From NCBI RefSeq assembly GCF_004346865.1, contig NZ_SMGR01000001.1, forward strand, positions 2,294,001 through 2,358,000: a DNA stretch of 64,000 nt. Reading direction: 5' to 3'. The notes under the pieces were generated by a model, which ran no database searches, was not told where the DNA came from, and was given only the letters and a program-made list of their open reading frames with translations. Within the stretch, counting starts at the first letter, position 1. Every line of letters starts with the position of its first letter. Below are positions 58,438 through 64,000 of this stretch, one piece after another. The DNA comes from Shimia isoporae (GTDB lineage Bacteria > Pseudomonadota > Alphaproteobacteria > Rhodobacterales > Rhodobacteraceae). Made by a program: the position numbers and the translations under genes.

Positions 58438-59499
58438 ATGACAGACGTATTCACGCATCCATGGCTTGGCGGTCTCTTTGACGACGAAGAAATTCGGCAA
58501 GTCCTGAGCGCTGAAAACTCCCTTTCGGAGATGATTGCAGTCGAAAACGCCTATACTGAGGCTCTTGCCGAAACAGGAATTGTCCACAAGGCAGACGCGG
58601 CCGAAGTGAGAAAACATCTATCAAAAGCAGCGGTTGGAATTACCGCTCTCCGAGACGGCACAGCCAAAGACGGGCTCGTTATTCCAACTCTGGTCAGCGA
58701 GTTGGCCAAGGGACTTCCGGATCGCGCCCGAAAAGCACTCCACAAGGGGATGACCTCTCAAGACGTCATTGACACAGCTCTGGTTCTATCCTTGCGCAGG
58801 GTCCTGGAAATCTTCGAGCAAAGGCTAACCCATGTCCTCTCACAGTTGAGCAGACTGGACTCCTCCTTCGGTCAAAATGACTTGATAGGACGAACGCGGA
58901 TGCAAGCCGCGTTGCCCATTCAAGTCGCCGATCGTCTGAATGGGTGGAGGGCCCCCTTTGAAAGCTGCACCAATCGATATCCGGGCATACGAAAAAACCT
59001 TTTGCGCCTCCAACTTGGTGGAGCAGTCGGCGATCGAACCCCTTGGGGAGAACATGCCGATCAAGTGGCCAACATAATGGCTGTTAAACTTGACCTTGAA
59101 AACGCGGCTCCATGGCACACTGACCGTACCGCAATTGCGGACTTTACGAACTGGCTTTCGCTGCTTACAGGGGGCGCCGGAAAAATTGGTCAGGATTTGA
59201 TGCTTATGTCGCAACAGGGGATCGATGAGGTTACCCTTTCAGGCGGCGGGAGCTCCTCCGCAATGCCTCACAAGCAAAACCCAATACAGGCGGAAGTTTT
59301 GGTAGCTCTGGCTCAGTACAACGCGATCCAATTAAGTGGAATGCACATGGCGTCGCACCACGAACAGGAACGTTCAGGAACTGCGTGGACACTGGAATGG
59401 ATGATTTTGCCACAAATGGTAATGGCGACCGGTTCCGCGCTAATGACCGTCTCAAAATTACTTGCCAACATAGAGAGGCTTGGAACGGCCAGTGGCTAA
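58438..59499 (+). CDS. pcaB: 3-Carboxy-cis,cis-muconate cycloisomerase
   Basis: A 353-residue member of the fumarase/aspartase superfamily forming 4-carboxymuconolactone. The superfamily signature is GGGSSSAMPHKQNPIQAE (about residue 265), with KGMTSQDVIDTALVL earlier. It is shorter than the about 450-residue gamma-proteobacterial enzymes, as usual in alphaproteobacteria. It is the last gene of the pca operon and a hairpin overlaps its stop. Confidence 0.94.
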   Translation: MTDVFTHPWLGGLFDDEEIRQVLSAENSLSEMIAVENAYTEALAETGIVHKADAAEVRKHLSKAAVGITALRDGTAKDGLVIPTLVSELAKGLPDRARKALHKGMTSQDVIDTALVLSLRRVLEIFEQRLTHVLSQLSRLDSSFGQNDLIGRTRMQAALPIQVADRLNGWRAPFESCTNRYPGIRKNLLRLQLGGAVGDRTPWGEHADQVANIMAVKLDLENAAPWHTDRTAIADFTNWLSLLTGGAGKIGQDLMLMSQQGIDEVTLSGGGSSSAMPHKQNPIQAEVLVALAQYNAIQLSGMHMASHHEQERSGTAWTLEWMILPQMVMATGSALMTVSKLLANIERLGTASG

Positions 59500-59509
59500 G
59501 CCACCGGCC
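59487..59509. terminator. Hairpin at the end of the pca operon
   Basis: 10-bp stem GGCCAGTGGC / GCCACCGGCC (one G-T pair) whose 3-base loop is the pcaB stop codon TAA; a weakly T-rich stretch follows. Located between convergent pcaB and coxG. Confidence 0.55.
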
Positions 59510-59532
59510 GATCGCTTTGTTCCGTTTCGCTC

Positions 59533-59985
59533 CTAGCTGACCGCTTCTTCGGTCATAACATCGGAAAAAGACTTGAAGAACTTTGCAGCTAACTTTTTAG
59601 CCGTACTTTGAATTAGGCGGCTGCCAAGCTGTGCCAGTTTTCCACCAATGGCCGCTTTGGCCTCGTAGCGCAAAATCGTTCGCCCGCCTTCAGCTGTCAG
59701 GGTGACGTCTGCTCCCCCCTTGGCATGTCCTGCCGCGCCGCCATTGCCTTGGCCGGAAAGGGAAAAAGCGCTTGGAGCGCCTTCTGTGTTCAGAACCACC
59801 TCGCCAGAAAACTTGGCTTTTACAGGGCCAACTTTGAGAACGACTTTGGCTTCCAGCTCGTTCTCAGATTTTTTGATCAACTCCTCGCATCCAGGTATAC
59901 AACGCTTCAATACCTCCGGATCATTGAGCGCCGCATAGACTTCCTCGATTGGCGCCTCAATTGTGATTTCATCAACCAACTCCAT
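59533..59985 (-). CDS. coxG: CO dehydrogenase accessory protein CoxG (SRPBCC family)
   Basis: A 150-residue SRPBCC-fold protein. The start (MELVDEITIEAPIEEVYAAL), GCEELIKKS, VKAKFSGEV and the C-terminal helix are typical of CoxG, thought to anchor or recruit CO dehydrogenase to the membrane. AAAGGA precedes its ATG. It is the final gene of the cox operon in this window, directly downstream of the 30-residue microprotein gene. Confidence 0.9.
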   Translation of the reverse strand: MELVDEITIEAPIEEVYAALNDPEVLKRCIPGCEELIKKSENELEAKVVLKVGPVKAKFSGEVVLNTEGAPSAFSLSGQGNGGAAGHAKGGADVTLTAEGGRTILRYEAKAAIGGKLAQLGSRLIQSTAKKLAAKFFKSFSDVMTEEAVS

Positions 59986-60003
59986 GGCTTGTCCTTTCTT
60001 TCG

Positions 60004-60096
60004 TCAACAACAGGGGAATTTGATTTTGGCCAGCAGCTCTGCCTGCTCCTGGGAGGGCGCACAGCGACGGGCAAGACGGTGCAACAGATTACACAT
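60004..60096 (-). CDS. 30-residue Cys-rich microprotein in the cox operon
   Basis: A tiny gene visible only by inspection. Its ATG overlaps the coxF/xdhC stop (TGATG) and has AGGGG six bases upstream; coxG starts 18 bases after its TGA. The product begins MCNLLHRLARRC, is basic and amphipathic in its first half, and ends KIKFPCC, with Cys at positions 2, 12, 29 and 30. No known family was recognised. A vicinal Cys pair at the extreme C terminus could bind a metal or sulfur donor during CuSMo cluster assembly; this is inference. Confidence 0.6.
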   Translation of the reverse strand: MCNLLHRLARRCAPSQEQAELLAKIKFPCC

Positions 60097-60875
60097 CACG
60101 ATCCCCTTTCGACCGATTGGCGGCGGTGCTGGATCAGCTCGCCCAGGATAGAGAGCGCGATTTCTTCGGGCGTGACCGCACCGATGTCCAAACCTGCCGG
60201 GGCAGAAACGCGGGTGATGTCCACTTGGGCGATGCCAGCATCGGCAAGTTTTGTGGACAGCGCGGCGAATTTCTTGTGGCTGCCCACAAAGGCCACATAG
60301 CTGGCGTCTTGGGTGAGCGCGTTTTTGAGCGCGTCAAGGTCCCCCTGCCCCTGCGTGGCAACCACTATGGCGCGCAGTTTGCCCGAGAACGCGGGGGCGT
60401 CGCCAGAGCGCGACACAGACCAATGGAACTGGGGCGCCAGTTGCGCGAGCGCCTCGGCAACCGGGGATGTGCCCAGCACCGCAAGCTGCGGCATGGGCAA
60501 GCATGGCTCAATAAAGATGTCCACCGTGCCGCGAGAGGGGCAACCGTTGCGGGCGTAGGTCACGCCGTCCACCATTGTCCCAGCGCTGACGCCGATTTCA
60601 TTGAGGAAATCTTCAGGCGCAACTGACACAAGCTGCGGCGCGCCAGTAGCGAGCGACTCGAGCGTTGCGCGGCGTACAGCCCCCCGCGTGCAACCGCCCC
60701 CAAGAAACCCCTGCAGTATGGTGCCGTCCGCGCCGATGATCGCCTTAGCGCCGGGTTTGGCGGCGGTGGTGCCTGCGGTGCGCACGATGGTGGCAAAAGC
60801 AAAGGGTTCGTCTTTAGCGCGTAGGTCAGTGGCGGTCTGGGCGAGGTCGGTGGACAAAAGCTCGGCAGGGGTCAT
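60096..60875 (-). CDS. coxF: XdhC/CoxF-type molybdenum cofactor maturation protein
   Basis: A 259-residue XdhC/CoxI-family protein. The N-terminal XdhC domain has FATIVRTAGTTAAKPGAKAI and the Cys-containing GGGCTRGAVRRA; the C-terminal Rossmann-like domain has LAVLGTSPVAEALAQL and VAFVGSHKKFAAL, with PAGLDIGAVTPEEIALSILGEL near the end. These proteins bind and sulfurate molybdenum cofactor for insertion. It overlaps coxE by four bases and the microprotein gene by one base. Confidence 0.9.
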   Translation of the reverse strand: MTPAELLSTDLAQTATDLRAKDEPFAFATIVRTAGTTAAKPGAKAIIGADGTILQGFLGGGCTRGAVRRATLESLATGAPQLVSVAPEDFLNEIGVSAGTMVDGVTYARNGCPSRGTVDIFIEPCLPMPQLAVLGTSPVAEALAQLAPQFHWSVSRSGDAPAFSGKLRAIVVATQGQGDLDALKNALTQDASYVAFVGSHKKFAALSTKLADAGIAQVDITRVSAPAGLDIGAVTPEEIALSILGELIQHRRQSVERGS

Positions 60876-62059
60876 AGGGTCACAAGCTCCATTTCCAAAG
60901 CCGCCAGATCGGCCAGCGTGTTGGCAGCGGCAAATCGATCAAGGTGCGGCAAGGCAGCGGCCATGCCCGCGGCAACAGGTTGGTAGTCGCGCCAGCCTTT
61001 GAGGGGGTTAAGCCAGATGATGCGGCAGCCGCGTTTGCGCAAGGTTGCAAGGGCGGCGTCGATATGCGCGGGCGGCGACGTGTCGTAGCCATCCGAGAAA
61101 ATCATCACAACTGAGCGGCCATCTACAAACTTGCGAGCGTAGGTGTGGGCGAAAGTATCGAGGCTCTCGCCAATTTTTGACCCGCCGCCAAAGCCATCCG
61201 CCATCAGAGACATGCGGCCAATAGCGCGCATGGCATCTTTGTCGCGCAACGCTTCGGTGATGCGCACAAGGCGGGTGTGGAACAGATAAGCGTCGGCGGT
61301 GAAATCGCCTCGCATGAGGCCCGCCAAAAAGGCGAGATAGACCTGCGCGTAGACGGTCATGGAGCCCGACACATCGCAGAGCGCGACGATTTTACGGCTG
61401 CGATCCGGACGTTTGCGCTGGATCAGCCGGATCGGTTCGCCACCCGTGGCCAAGCTGCGCCGGATGGTTTTGCGAAAATGCAGGCGGTCGCCTTTGTTGG
61501 CCGCCACACGGCGACGGGAGCGCCGGTCGCGTAGTGCAAGCCCGAGCCGTCGCGCAATAGCCTCGGCTTCGGCAATGTCTTCGGGCTGTATCAGGTCACG
61601 CAAGTCGCGACGTGAGAGGTTGCGCATCTCTGTGGCGATGAGCTTGCCTTCGCCATCATTCTCAGCCTCACCTTGCCCTGCCTCGGGCGCAGTGGCATCC
61701 CCTGCACCACCGGCGTCTTCGCCTTTGGCGTTGCGGGAGGAATGCACGCTGTCGTCGCCTTTGCTTGGCGCCGTCCTTTTCGGCATGACCTTGGTGCGCA
61801 CGCGGCCTGCGTCCATCCAAAAGCTATCAAACAACGCGTCGAACTGTTGCGCATCGTCTTTGCAACCCGTGCAAATGGCTTTGAGCGCGCGGCGGGTTTC
61901 AGCGGGCTGGGCCGCGTCCACATAGGTGAGCGCGGTGAGGGCCGCTTCGGTTTCCTGAACCCCAAGGCGCAGGCCGTTTTCGCGCAGATGCGCCATGAAC
62001 CCTGCCATGCGCGCGGTGGCACCCGGGTCGCGGCCAGCAAAACGGGTGACACGGCTCAT
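60872..62059 (-). CDS. coxE: CoxE, VWA-domain partner of the CoxD ATPase
   Basis: A 395-residue protein with a helical N-terminal part, a charged acidic linker (about 115-150) and a C-terminal von Willebrand A domain carrying the MIDAS motif CDVSGSM followed by GGSKIGESLDTF and FSDGYDTSPP. Such VWA proteins work with MoxR-type ATPases in metal-centre assembly. It overlaps both coxD and coxF by four bases, so all are coupled. Confidence 0.92.
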   Translation of the reverse strand: MSRVTRFAGRDPGATARMAGFMAHLRENGLRLGVQETEAALTALTYVDAAQPAETRRALKAICTGCKDDAQQFDALFDSFWMDAGRVRTKVMPKRTAPSKGDDSVHSSRNAKGEDAGGAGDATAPEAGQGEAENDGEGKLIATEMRNLSRRDLRDLIQPEDIAEAEAIARRLGLALRDRRSRRRVAANKGDRLHFRKTIRRSLATGGEPIRLIQRKRPDRSRKIVALCDVSGSMTVYAQVYLAFLAGLMRGDFTADAYLFHTRLVRITEALRDKDAMRAIGRMSLMADGFGGGSKIGESLDTFAHTYARKFVDGRSVVMIFSDGYDTSPPAHIDAALATLRKRGCRIIWLNPLKGWRDYQPVAAGMAAALPHLDRFAAANTLADLAALEMELVTL

Positions 62060-62934
62060 GCGGCCTTCCCCGCGATCCGCTGCGCCACCTCGGTCGTGAT
62101 ATGCGCGCGGTCGCTTTGCGTTTTTAGCAAAGTTGTGAGGGTGGCTTGCAGCGCGGCGGGGTCGGCGGTTAGGTCAGCAATGCCCAACCCCATGAGTGCT
62201 GCGGCGAAGTCCAGCGTTTCGGCAATGCCTGGCACTTTTTCCAGGTCTTCTTTGCGCAGGGTTTGCACAAAGCCAATAATCTTTTCTGCGAGGCGTGTTT
62301 CAATTCCGGCGCAGCGCGCTTGCAGGATTGCCAATTCTGTTTCGCGGTCGGGGTAGTCAACATAGGCGAACAAACACCGGCGGCGCAGCGCGTCCGACAG
62401 GTCACGTGTACCGTTGGAGGTCAGGATTACGGTGGGCACCGTGGTCGCTGTGATGGTGCCCAGTTCAGGCACGGTGATTTGGTAGTCTGCTAGGATTTCC
62501 AGAAGGAAGGCTTCGAACTCCTCGTCTGCGCGATCAATCTCGTCGATCAGCAGAACCGGGGCTTGCGCCTGCGTGATTGCTGCCAGCAAAGGCCGCTCCA
62601 GCAAGTACTCACGCGAGAATATGCGGTCTTCGACTTGTTTTCCGGTTTCGCCCGCTTCTGAACTGGCGCGGATGGCGAGCAACTGGCGCTGGTAGTTCCA
62701 TTCGTAAATGGCTTGGGCCGCATCTAGACCTTCGTAACACTGCAGGCGGATCAGTTTGGTGTTTTGAGCCGCCGCCAACACACGCGCGACTTCGGTTTTG
62801 CCCACGCCAGCTGCGCCTTCAAGCAACAAAGGACGCTGCAGTGACAGGGCGAGGTGCAGAGACACCGCGAGATCATCGGATGCCACATAGTTTTCCGCCG
62901 CGAGGGCAGATTGAAGGTCGGTCCAAGAAGTCAT
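62056..62934 (-). CDS. coxD: CoxD, MoxR-type AAA+ ATPase
   Basis: A 292-residue AAA+ ATPase. Walker A LLEGAAGVGKTEVA, Walker B VLLIDEIDRADEEFEA, sensor 1 ILTSNGTRDLSDALRRRC and a C-terminal helical lid are clear. In Oligotropha, CoxD is needed to build the Cu-S-Mo centre of CO dehydrogenase. The ATG at 62934 has GAGG at five-base spacing; a longer in-frame reading would overlap the coxL spacer without homology. Confidence 0.92.
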   Translation of the reverse strand: MTSWTDLQSALAAENYVASDDLAVSLHLALSLQRPLLLEGAAGVGKTEVARVLAAAQNTKLIRLQCYEGLDAAQAIYEWNYQRQLLAIRASSEAGETGKQVEDRIFSREYLLERPLLAAITQAQAPVLLIDEIDRADEEFEAFLLEILADYQITVPELGTITATTVPTVILTSNGTRDLSDALRRRCLFAYVDYPDRETELAILQARCAGIETRLAEKIIGFVQTLRKEDLEKVPGIAETLDFAAALMGLGIADLTADPAALQATLTTLLKTQSDRAHITTEVAQRIAGKAA

Positions 62935-62987: not shown

Positions 62988-64000
62988 TTACCCGTGCAGA
63001 CCAAGCCCGTTGGCGGTCTTCCAAATCCGCCAGTGGTCATGCGGCATGTGCGTGTGGCGTAGGCCAAAGGCGCGGAAGGCGTCGTTCACGGCGTTGGAGA
63101 AACAGGGCACTCCGCCCACATGAGGGCTTTCGCCGACGCCCTTCGCCCCAATTGGGTGGTGCGGACTTGGCGTCACGGTGTGATCTGTTTCGTAGTTCGG
63201 CACCTCCCACGCGGTGGGCAGGAAGAAGTCCATCAGCGTGCCGGTCTTGACGTTGCCCATGTCATCATAAGCAATCTCTTGCCCCAGCGCGACGGCCAGA
63301 GCTTCGGTGAGGCCGCCATGCACCTGCCCTTCGATGATCATCGGGTTGATGCGTGTGCCACAGTCGTCCAGCGCATAGAAGCGGCGGATCTCGGTCACAC
63401 CGGTGTCCACGTCGATGTCCATGACGCAGACATAGGCACCAAACGGATAGGTCATGTTCGGCGGATCATAGTAGCTGACCGCCTCGAGACCCGGCTCAAT
63501 GCCCGGAATAGCCTGATTATATGCGGCGAAGGCGATTTCCTTCATCGTCTTGAACTTCTCAGGCGCGCCTTTGACCACAAACCGATCCACGTCAAACTCG
63601 ACATCATCGTCGTGCACTTCCAAGAGGTAAGCCGCAATCATCTGCGCCTTGGCGCGGATTTTACGACCAGCCATCGCTGTGGCTGCACCGGCCACAGGCG
63701 TGGAGCGCGAGCCATATGTGCCGAGACCATAAGGCGCGGTGTCAGTGTCGCCTTCCTCAATGGTGATGCTGTCCGCTGGCAAGCCAATCTCGGTTGCGAG
63801 GATTTGCGCAAAGGTGGTCGCGTGGCCCTGTCCTTGTGAGATGGTGCCGAGGCGCGCAATCGCGGAGCCAGTTGGGTGGATGCGGATTTCGCAGCTGTCA
63901 AACATCCCGAGACCAAGAATGTCGCAATTCTTGACCGGACCTGCACCGACGATTTCGGTGAAATGCGTCAGGCCAATTCCCATCAGCTTGCGGGTTTTGC
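62988..64000 (-). CDS. coxL: Aerobic CO dehydrogenase large subunit, form I (5' end outside window)
   Basis: Partial: about 337 C-terminal codons are in the window and the frame stays open to the right edge. The molybdenum subunit oxidises CO to CO2. Segments YGLGTYGSRSTPVAGAA, YYDPPNMTYPFGAYVC, YALDDCGTRINPMIIEGQ and GAKGVGESPHVGGVPCFSN closely match the Oligotropha form I (OMP) enzyme, and the molybdenum-proximal glutamate of GVGES is intact (codon 63129-63131). The form I active-site loop with the Cu-binding Cys lies upstream, outside the window. Subunits S and M are presumably beyond the edge. Confidence 0.95.
   Translation of the reverse strand, partial: KTRKLMGIGLTHFTEIVGAGPVKNCDILGLGMFDSCEIRIHPTGSAIARLGTISQGQGHATTFAQILATEIGLPADSITIEEGDTDTAPYGLGTYGSRSTPVAGAATAMAGRKIRAKAQMIAAYLLEVHDDDVEFDVDRFVVKGAPEKFKTMKEIAFAAYNQAIPGIEPGLEAVSYYDPPNMTYPFGAYVCVMDIDVDTGVTEIRRFYALDDCGTRINPMIIEGQVHGGLTEALAVALGQEIAYDDMGNVKTGTLMDFFLPTAWEVPNYETDHTVTPSPHHPIGAKGVGESPHVGGVPCFSNAVNDAFRAFGLRHTHMPHDHWRIWKTANGLGLHG

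Follow-up and report, generated by a model that had tools for sequence, protein, structure and literature searches.

Results

A 30-codon gene between coxF and coxG

The stretch of DNA analysed here in its whole length, 64,000 nucleotides from Shimia isoporae and called the window below, carries close to its end a part of a cox operon for CO dehydrogenase (CODH), located on the minus strand. Read in the direction of transcription, it consists of the 3' part of coxL, encoding the large subunit of form I CO dehydrogenase (62988..63983, running out of the window; Pfam and NCBIfam), coxD, encoding a MoxR-type AAA ATPase (62056..62934; Pfam and NCBIfam, the start at 62934 being chosen inside a longer open reading frame), coxE (VWA_CoxE, PF05762, 60872..62059), coxF (XdhC-like, PF13478/PF02625, 60096..60875) and coxG (PF06240, 59533..59985), the last three assigned by Pfam. 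CoxL of the window genome is form I, scoring above the TIGR02416 cut-off. The coxG product has 150 amino acids and, in comparison with its relatives, is a short form devoid of the C-terminal tail; it is the proposed partner of the microprotein described here. A plus-strand gene (58438-59499), which may encode a fumarase/PcaB-type lyase, converges tail to tail with coxG at a distance of 33 nt (59499-59533).

Between coxF and coxG lies a further minus-strand gene (60004..60096, stop codon TGA at 60004-60006), which is contained in the ORF list and supported by homologues and purifying selection. It encodes a microprotein of 30 amino acids, MCNLLHRLARRCAPSQEQAELLAKIKFPCC; according to the ORF list, an alternative GTG start one codon upstream would give 31 amino acids. 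The initial annotation had described a TGATG junction with coxF, a separate ribosome-binding site and tight packing before coxG, and all three are present. The coxF stop codon TGA (60096..60098) overlaps the microprotein ATG (60094-60096), the ribosome-binding site AAAGGGG (60103..60109) is placed inside the 3' end of coxF, 6 nt before this ATG, and 18 nt separate the microprotein stop from the coxG ATG (59985), the coxG ribosome-binding site AAAGGAC (core AAAGGA, 59991..59997) being contained in this gap. The TGATG junction indicates translational coupling between coxF and the microprotein gene.

No family of Pfam, NCBIfam or PHROGs was assigned to the window protein. Among 70 aligned members of its family, no more than four matched any Pfam family, the best of these weak matches being that to PF03457 (E 1.2e-4), and weak matches were obtained for 2/70 with PHROGs and for 1/70 with NCBIfam. 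The SRPBCC domain PF06240 was absent from the microprotein in the Pfam search; the microprotein itself appears not to be a CoxG, and at most works with CoxG. A second CoxG (49% identity) is encoded in the window genome, yet the profile search found only one microprotein match there. The neighbouring genes of the operon within the window are cox genes, and a search among them gave no RiPP modification enzyme; the listings obtained from searches of open-licence papers name no small protein between coxF and coxG. Within what was searched, the microprotein is thus best regarded as a new, unnamed family, and its role, as discussed below, is one that we infer. That the gene is undescribed and easily missed, as had been claimed, agrees both with the absence of a curated family and with plasmid annotation: in five Rhodobacterales plasmid matches it was a separate gene once (as 'hypothetical protein') and had no entry in four, in a count where the second Roseivivax record is represented by a search row alone and the gene table describes itself as incomplete.

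Conservation and coding selection

A CoxG scan of species genomes provided 80 coxG loci from other genomes. It had been proposed along with the initial annotation that the region between coxF and coxG be searched for short frames ending in PCC; a homologous short frame is found directly before coxG in 73 of the 80 loci, and its end is conserved. The distance from its stop to coxG is 11-22 nt and varies in length. The frames end in FPCC, the exceptions being HPCC, SPCC, YPCC and FPSC (one each) and FSCC (two). Complete frames starting with ATG, either of exactly 33 residues (37 frames) or of 30 (25 frames), account for 62/72, and three more reach 33 residues from TTG or GTG, which makes 65/72 complete at 30 or 33. 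The start overlaps the upstream stop by 4 or 1 nt in 42/72 homologous loci. Immediately upstream of the frame we found a MobA-like gene in 40 loci, coxF in 32 and the end of a contig in one; the MobA-like nucleotidyltransferase gene, inserted between coxF and the microprotein gene in these 40 of the 73 loci (e.g. L005, L010, L034), is absent from the window operon.

Alignment A1 comprised the window and 69 of the 73 positive loci, L011 (incomplete), L015 (a near-copy of L014), L016 and L017 (unclear starts) being omitted, and residue statistics (n=66) were calculated for the window and the 65 loci with frames of 30 or 33 amino acids. The family consensus is MxxLxxxxxRLRRKxALTPEQAExLAxIKFPCC. 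The last residue is Cys in 66/66 sequences and that at position -2 in 65/66, making the free C-terminal CC of the FPCC terminus, which the initial annotation had noted, the most conserved part of the protein. Of the four cysteines to which it had also drawn attention, the C-terminal pair is conserved and C2 and C12 of the window protein are not, 49/66 sequences having no Cys beyond the pair; the feature to be explained is therefore the FPCC end. A four-Cys metal site within the peptide was ruled out, as the N-terminal cysteines are not conserved.

Substitution rates were calculated for 40 genes of 33 amino acids, the 26 genes of 30 amino acids being handled apart. In frame, pN/pS was 0.315/0.727, i.e. 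0.43, and in the two shifted frames of the same genes it was 0.431/0.383 and 0.449/0.307, both above 1. In this set pN fell to 0.16 in the C-terminal half and to 0.05 in the last six codons, where pN/pS was 0.06. The microprotein pS was close to that of coxG codons 2-80 (0.74), pN/pS was below 1 in 120/120 gene pairs with pS between 0.1 and 0.6, and both TGT and TGC were used at both C-terminal Cys positions. Conservation and pN/pS with the shifted-frame controls rule out a chance frame; judged by these substitution patterns, the frame is a selected, protein-coding gene whose start, ribosome-binding site and stop are kept.

Predicted structure

AlphaFold2 predicted two helices (residues 2-11 and 16-26) and a free KFPCC end, with a pLDDT of 85.5 and a pTM of only 0.33. 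Helix 1 (60064..60093) is basic and amphipathic according to this model and to the hydrophobic moment, and is the proposed membrane-binding part. In the window protein, residues 1-12 have a hydrophobic moment of 0.77, compared with 0.38 for shuffled sequences, and a net charge of +3; over the family (n=66), the N-terminal 12-14 residues have a mean charge of about +5 and a mean moment z of 1.35, and with a mean hydrophobicity of -0.39 they form no transmembrane-like segment. By inspection of the alignment and by mean hydrophobicity, no Sec-like hydrophobic core was seen in the N-terminal half. Helix 2, with the motif EQAELLAKI, makes up together with the C-terminal KFPCC (60007..60051) the conserved part of the family, as judged by the alignment, pN and AlphaFold2.

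A Foldseek search of the PDB returned one match only (E 9.4). TALE repeat proteins were at the top of the profile search of PDB sequences (whole-sequence E 4.8e-11); none of their stretches passed singly, and we take the match, which covers positions 6-22, as summed repeats. After them, only matches with E above 0.1 were obtained.

Distribution among CODH operons

The 80 loci were fetched by CoxG and have a coxG neighbour by construction; the order-wide profile search is independent of that. It covered 292 genomes, 73 of which have form I CoxL above the cut-off. Strong microprotein matches (E <=1.3e-5) were obtained in 41 genomes, all of them among these 73, and in 0/219 genomes without form I CoxL above the cut-off; coxG was located within 45 nt downstream of the match in 41/41. 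Because only 20-27 candidates were scored per genome in the profile search, misses are to be expected, and reading of the gap before coxG added 14 genomes with a divergent version 15-19 nt before coxG. Thirteen of these end in (F/Y)P(R/K)CC and one in FPRSC, and they are presumably homologous to the microprotein.

Among the remaining form I genomes, seven have a coxG-bearing operon with no intact microprotein, remnants being visible in two (L137, L130), nine have neither coxG nor an intact microprotein in the stretch retrieved after coxF, one of them (L157) with a decayed remnant, and two stop at a contig edge. An uninterrupted microprotein was found in 54/62 form I operons with coxG, as compared with 0/9 without it (Fisher p = 1.5e-7, calculated with 55/62, G422 being counted as intact, and with relatedness not corrected). 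In G422 (L117, near 1480-1620), one of the 41 genomes with a strong match, an in-frame TAA interrupts the microprotein before AEQIRFPCC, with the coxG start behind it. Among the 80 loci fetched by CoxG, the microprotein precedes 71/74 coxG genes for which coxL lies within reach, and 0/4 of those that have no cox gene nearby. The nine genomes of the order sample that lack a neighbouring coxG retain coxD, coxE and coxF together with a CoxL bearing the YRCSFR copper-ligand motif, and their only CoxG is a paralog encoded elsewhere (48-56% identity), tailed in 8/9. Gene content thus indicates that the microprotein goes with coxG rather than with coxD, coxE or coxF.

Strong matches in the class sample (385 genomes, five of them from the family of the window) numbered three, all in Rhodobacteraceae; the four in the phylum sample (299 genomes) were also all from Rhodobacteraceae and overlapped those of the class sample. 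Weak matches (E 0.002-0.008) were set aside: seven in the class sample and, in the order sample, those in G599, G433 and G587 as well as an additional one in G571. We attribute to chance a match on a Klebsiella plasmid (E = 2, 38% identity). The sample from other families consisted of 12 form I coxL stretches, with coxG after coxF in L166, L169 and L171 and, in L164, a gene resembling coxG that is flanked by coxL and coxD; none of these four has a short frame ending in Cys-Cys within 150 nt before coxG. The coxF and coxG genes of Afipia and Bradyrhizobium adjoin directly, leaving no room for such a frame.

Two plasmids have unusual arrangements. On Roseivivax pTHAF197b_a (L120:6840-7600) coxL, coxD, coxE and coxF are annotated, the microprotein is intact and coxG is a broken remnant, in what looks like a recent loss of coxG. 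On Pseudosulfitobacter pSMR1-4 (L122:7548-8531) a second XdhC-family gene overlaps the 3' end of coxG.

CoxG proteins with and without a C-terminal tail

The CODH-linked CoxG proteins of Rhodobacteraceae have 147-154 amino acids and no C-terminal tail, and CoxG is equally tail-less in the seven coxG operons without the microprotein. Plasmids, too, encode tail-less CoxG (146-158 aa), either away from CODH operons or where the surroundings are unannotated (L177, L179, L213, L214). Six CODH-linked CoxGs from other families carry a tail after residue about 145. In the CoxGs of Afipia (205 aa) and Bradyrhizobium (209 aa) the tail combines KK..GWLKK with a hydrophobic segment and HWCC; the tail of L169 contains HACC, that of L166 is a basic amphipathic helix, VIKRVVRAIRRLFGG, that of L171 a plain hydrophobic helix, and that of L164 reads WQLIKHWIAGLFGTRR. 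Three of the six tails contain CC, two of these coming from one family. Behind the hydrophobic stretch of L176, L210 and L169 (Afipia, Bradyrhizobium and another family) come H(W/A)CC and an AHA stretch. Of ten CoxG paralogs inside Rhodobacteraceae, nine end in an acidic linker followed by a short, basic tail resembling KKGWLKRL. CC occurs in 2/9 readable CoxG tails, nine being the number obtained from 20 loci.

The basic amphipathic helix of the microprotein resembles the tails of long CoxGs in character, without alignable homology. Shared with the long tails, such as those of Afipia carboxidovorans OM5 and Bradyrhizobium betae, are the basic stretch, the association with the SRPBCC protein CoxG and, in three of the six, the CC pair. 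The long tail, however, is fused to CoxG and has a linker and a hydrophobic stretch of membrane type, whereas the microprotein is encoded by a separate gene 5' of coxG, has no hydrophobic stretch, and carries CC as its last two residues.

Discussion

The explanation that we tentatively favour, with a probability of about 45%, is that the microprotein serves as a membrane tether or adapter acting in trans on the quinone shuttle CoxG. The role of a missing tail is suggested by the combination of a tail-less CoxG with a basic amphipathic helix and a CC end encoded just before coxG. The short CODH-linked CoxG of Rhodobacteraceae would have its membrane tail supplied in trans by the microprotein, whose helix 1 would rest on the surface of the inner membrane. 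CoxG, alone or in complex with CODH, would be held by helix 2 (EQAExLAxI) and the KFPCC end, so that CoxG could ferry quinone between CODH and the membrane; the point of contact would be the C-terminal Cys pair, by way of a thiol, a disulfide or a metal.

Such a role can be accommodated in part by published data. Excerpts of one paper present CoxG as a quinone-binding protein which delivers electrons from Mo-CODH (PMC13240472), and CoxG is treated as a quinone carrier in excerpts of this paper and of another (PMC13077300). In the portions available of two further reports, CoxG attaches its partner enzymes to the membrane (PMC11962113, PMC4240915); the former argues that its CoxG has this anchoring role and no share in electron transfer, which counts against assistance to a shuttle. 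Three of our own observations also speak against the favoured role. The tailed CoxG paralog encoded elsewhere in the nine genomes without adjacent coxG might serve CODH, and the microprotein is apparently not strictly needed, because seven of the 62 coxG operons do without it and one more has it interrupted by a stop codon. Tail-less CoxG is encoded in other contexts as well (L177, L179, L213, L214).

The cysteines of the two proteins allow a more specific proposal, in which CoxG would be the quinone pocket of a split shuttle and the microprotein its detachable membrane tail, the Cys pair of the latter being linked (as thiol, disulfide or metal-thiolate) to the Cys pair of the CoxG motif CIPGC, so that docking would be coupled to redox state or copper. 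In this specific form we regard the idea as a long shot. CoxG Cys29 (searched as xIPGC) is kept in 107/107 distinct pairs in which the microprotein frame ends in Cys, and is lost in 3/8 distinct CODH-linked CoxGs that have no microprotein (L030, L130, L150); the Fisher test gives p = 2e-4, with the incomplete L011 counted as the 108th pair and phylogeny not corrected. This pattern would fit a thiol contact between the microprotein and CoxG, and is to be treated as a lead rather than a result. CIPGC is also kept in CoxGs without a microprotein partner, and the losses of Cys29 may therefore reflect nothing else than CoxG decay.

A different function of the cysteines was implied by the initial annotation, which placed the peptide among genes building the Cu-S-Mo centre. 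Cox17 binds Cu(I) through the neighbouring cysteines of a K-P-C-C motif, and chaperones of this type share with the microprotein a Pro-Cys-Cys near a basic residue; the microprotein differs from them in having 30 residues, no further conserved Cys, and the CC pair at a free C terminus. Its PCC end might bind Cu(I), or carry a persulfide, and hand it over to CoxF or to apo-CODH for the [CuSMo] centre. The nearly invariant CC, the location in the operon of a copper enzyme and, in the window, the translational coupling to coxF are all in line with such a carrier; its absence from the nine operons that lack coxG and retain coxD, coxE, coxF and an intact coxL with YRCSFR is not, and neither is its absence from the Afipia and Bradyrhizobium operons with abutting coxF and coxG. 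The mutant data from Oligotropha (Afipia) speak on both sides: one passage of PMC4240915 has the enzyme of the coxG mutant deficient in copper and high in zinc, whereas elsewhere this paper states that the catalytic site of the CODH made by the mutant is functional, and concludes that coxG acts outside cluster maturation and that CoxF supplies copper. We therefore consider a copper or sulfur carrier unlikely: of the initial proposal, the real, unnamed gene stands, and the part in assembly is less supported given the nine coxL-D-E-F operons, although the peptide may bind a metal.

The peptide might alternatively act while it is being made, its CC end sensing cysteine, copper or redox state as a nascent chain and setting the translation of coxG 11-22 nt downstream, with no later role for the product. 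The fixed place directly before coxG and conservation that is strongest at the C terminus would be expected of a regulatory frame, and copper-sensing small frames precede other genes in Rhodobacter and Bordetella, according to the parts available of PMC9973294 and PMC9426467. CutF of Rhodobacter capsulatus and the DUF2946 frame bp2923 of Bordetella are similar to the microprotein in being encoded by a small frame directly before the gene concerned, and CutF has Cys. The microprotein, however, has neither the conserved CxxxC nor the proline-rich end of CutF (as described in part of PMC9973294), its conserved end being KFPCC, and in contrast to CutF no stem-loop signal was detected over the next ribosome-binding site, that of coxG, in 72 sequences (mean folding z +0.37, 0/72 below -2). 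RNAalifold gave no pairs for the 72 sequences, and Rfam had no match in the 3 kb from 58500 to 61500 of the window, on which grounds an RNA element or attenuator hairpin was rejected. Arrest without RNA structure is possible. The gap to coxG nevertheless varies in length, and both charge and amphipathic pattern are preserved in the N-terminal part, so that a purely regulatory peptide seems improbable to us.

A structural role in CODH itself, as a small subunit or adapter on the CoxM/CoxS side that is linked to coxG only via a shared CODH-membrane interface, is doubtful, for although the microprotein is encoded in the same operon and form I CoxL is present in 41/41 genomes with strong matches, it was not found where coxG is missing and CoxL stays (9/9). 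Small proteins of respiratory complexes of the CydX type have about 30 residues as well, are encoded in electron-transfer operons and easily remain unannotated; the microprotein is unlike CydX in its lack of a transmembrane-like segment, given its N-terminal hydrophobicity of -0.39 and charge of about +5.

The transfer of electrons from the soluble Mo-Cu CODH to membrane quinone through CoxG has been addressed only recently, and Rhodobacteraceae include the marine roseobacter CO oxidisers. If the favoured role as a membrane tether or adapter of CoxG is true, a conserved, often unannotated partner encoded next to coxG would explain how a tail-less CoxG reaches the membrane, and it is a partner that could be missed in expression constructs designed from the annotated cox genes alone.
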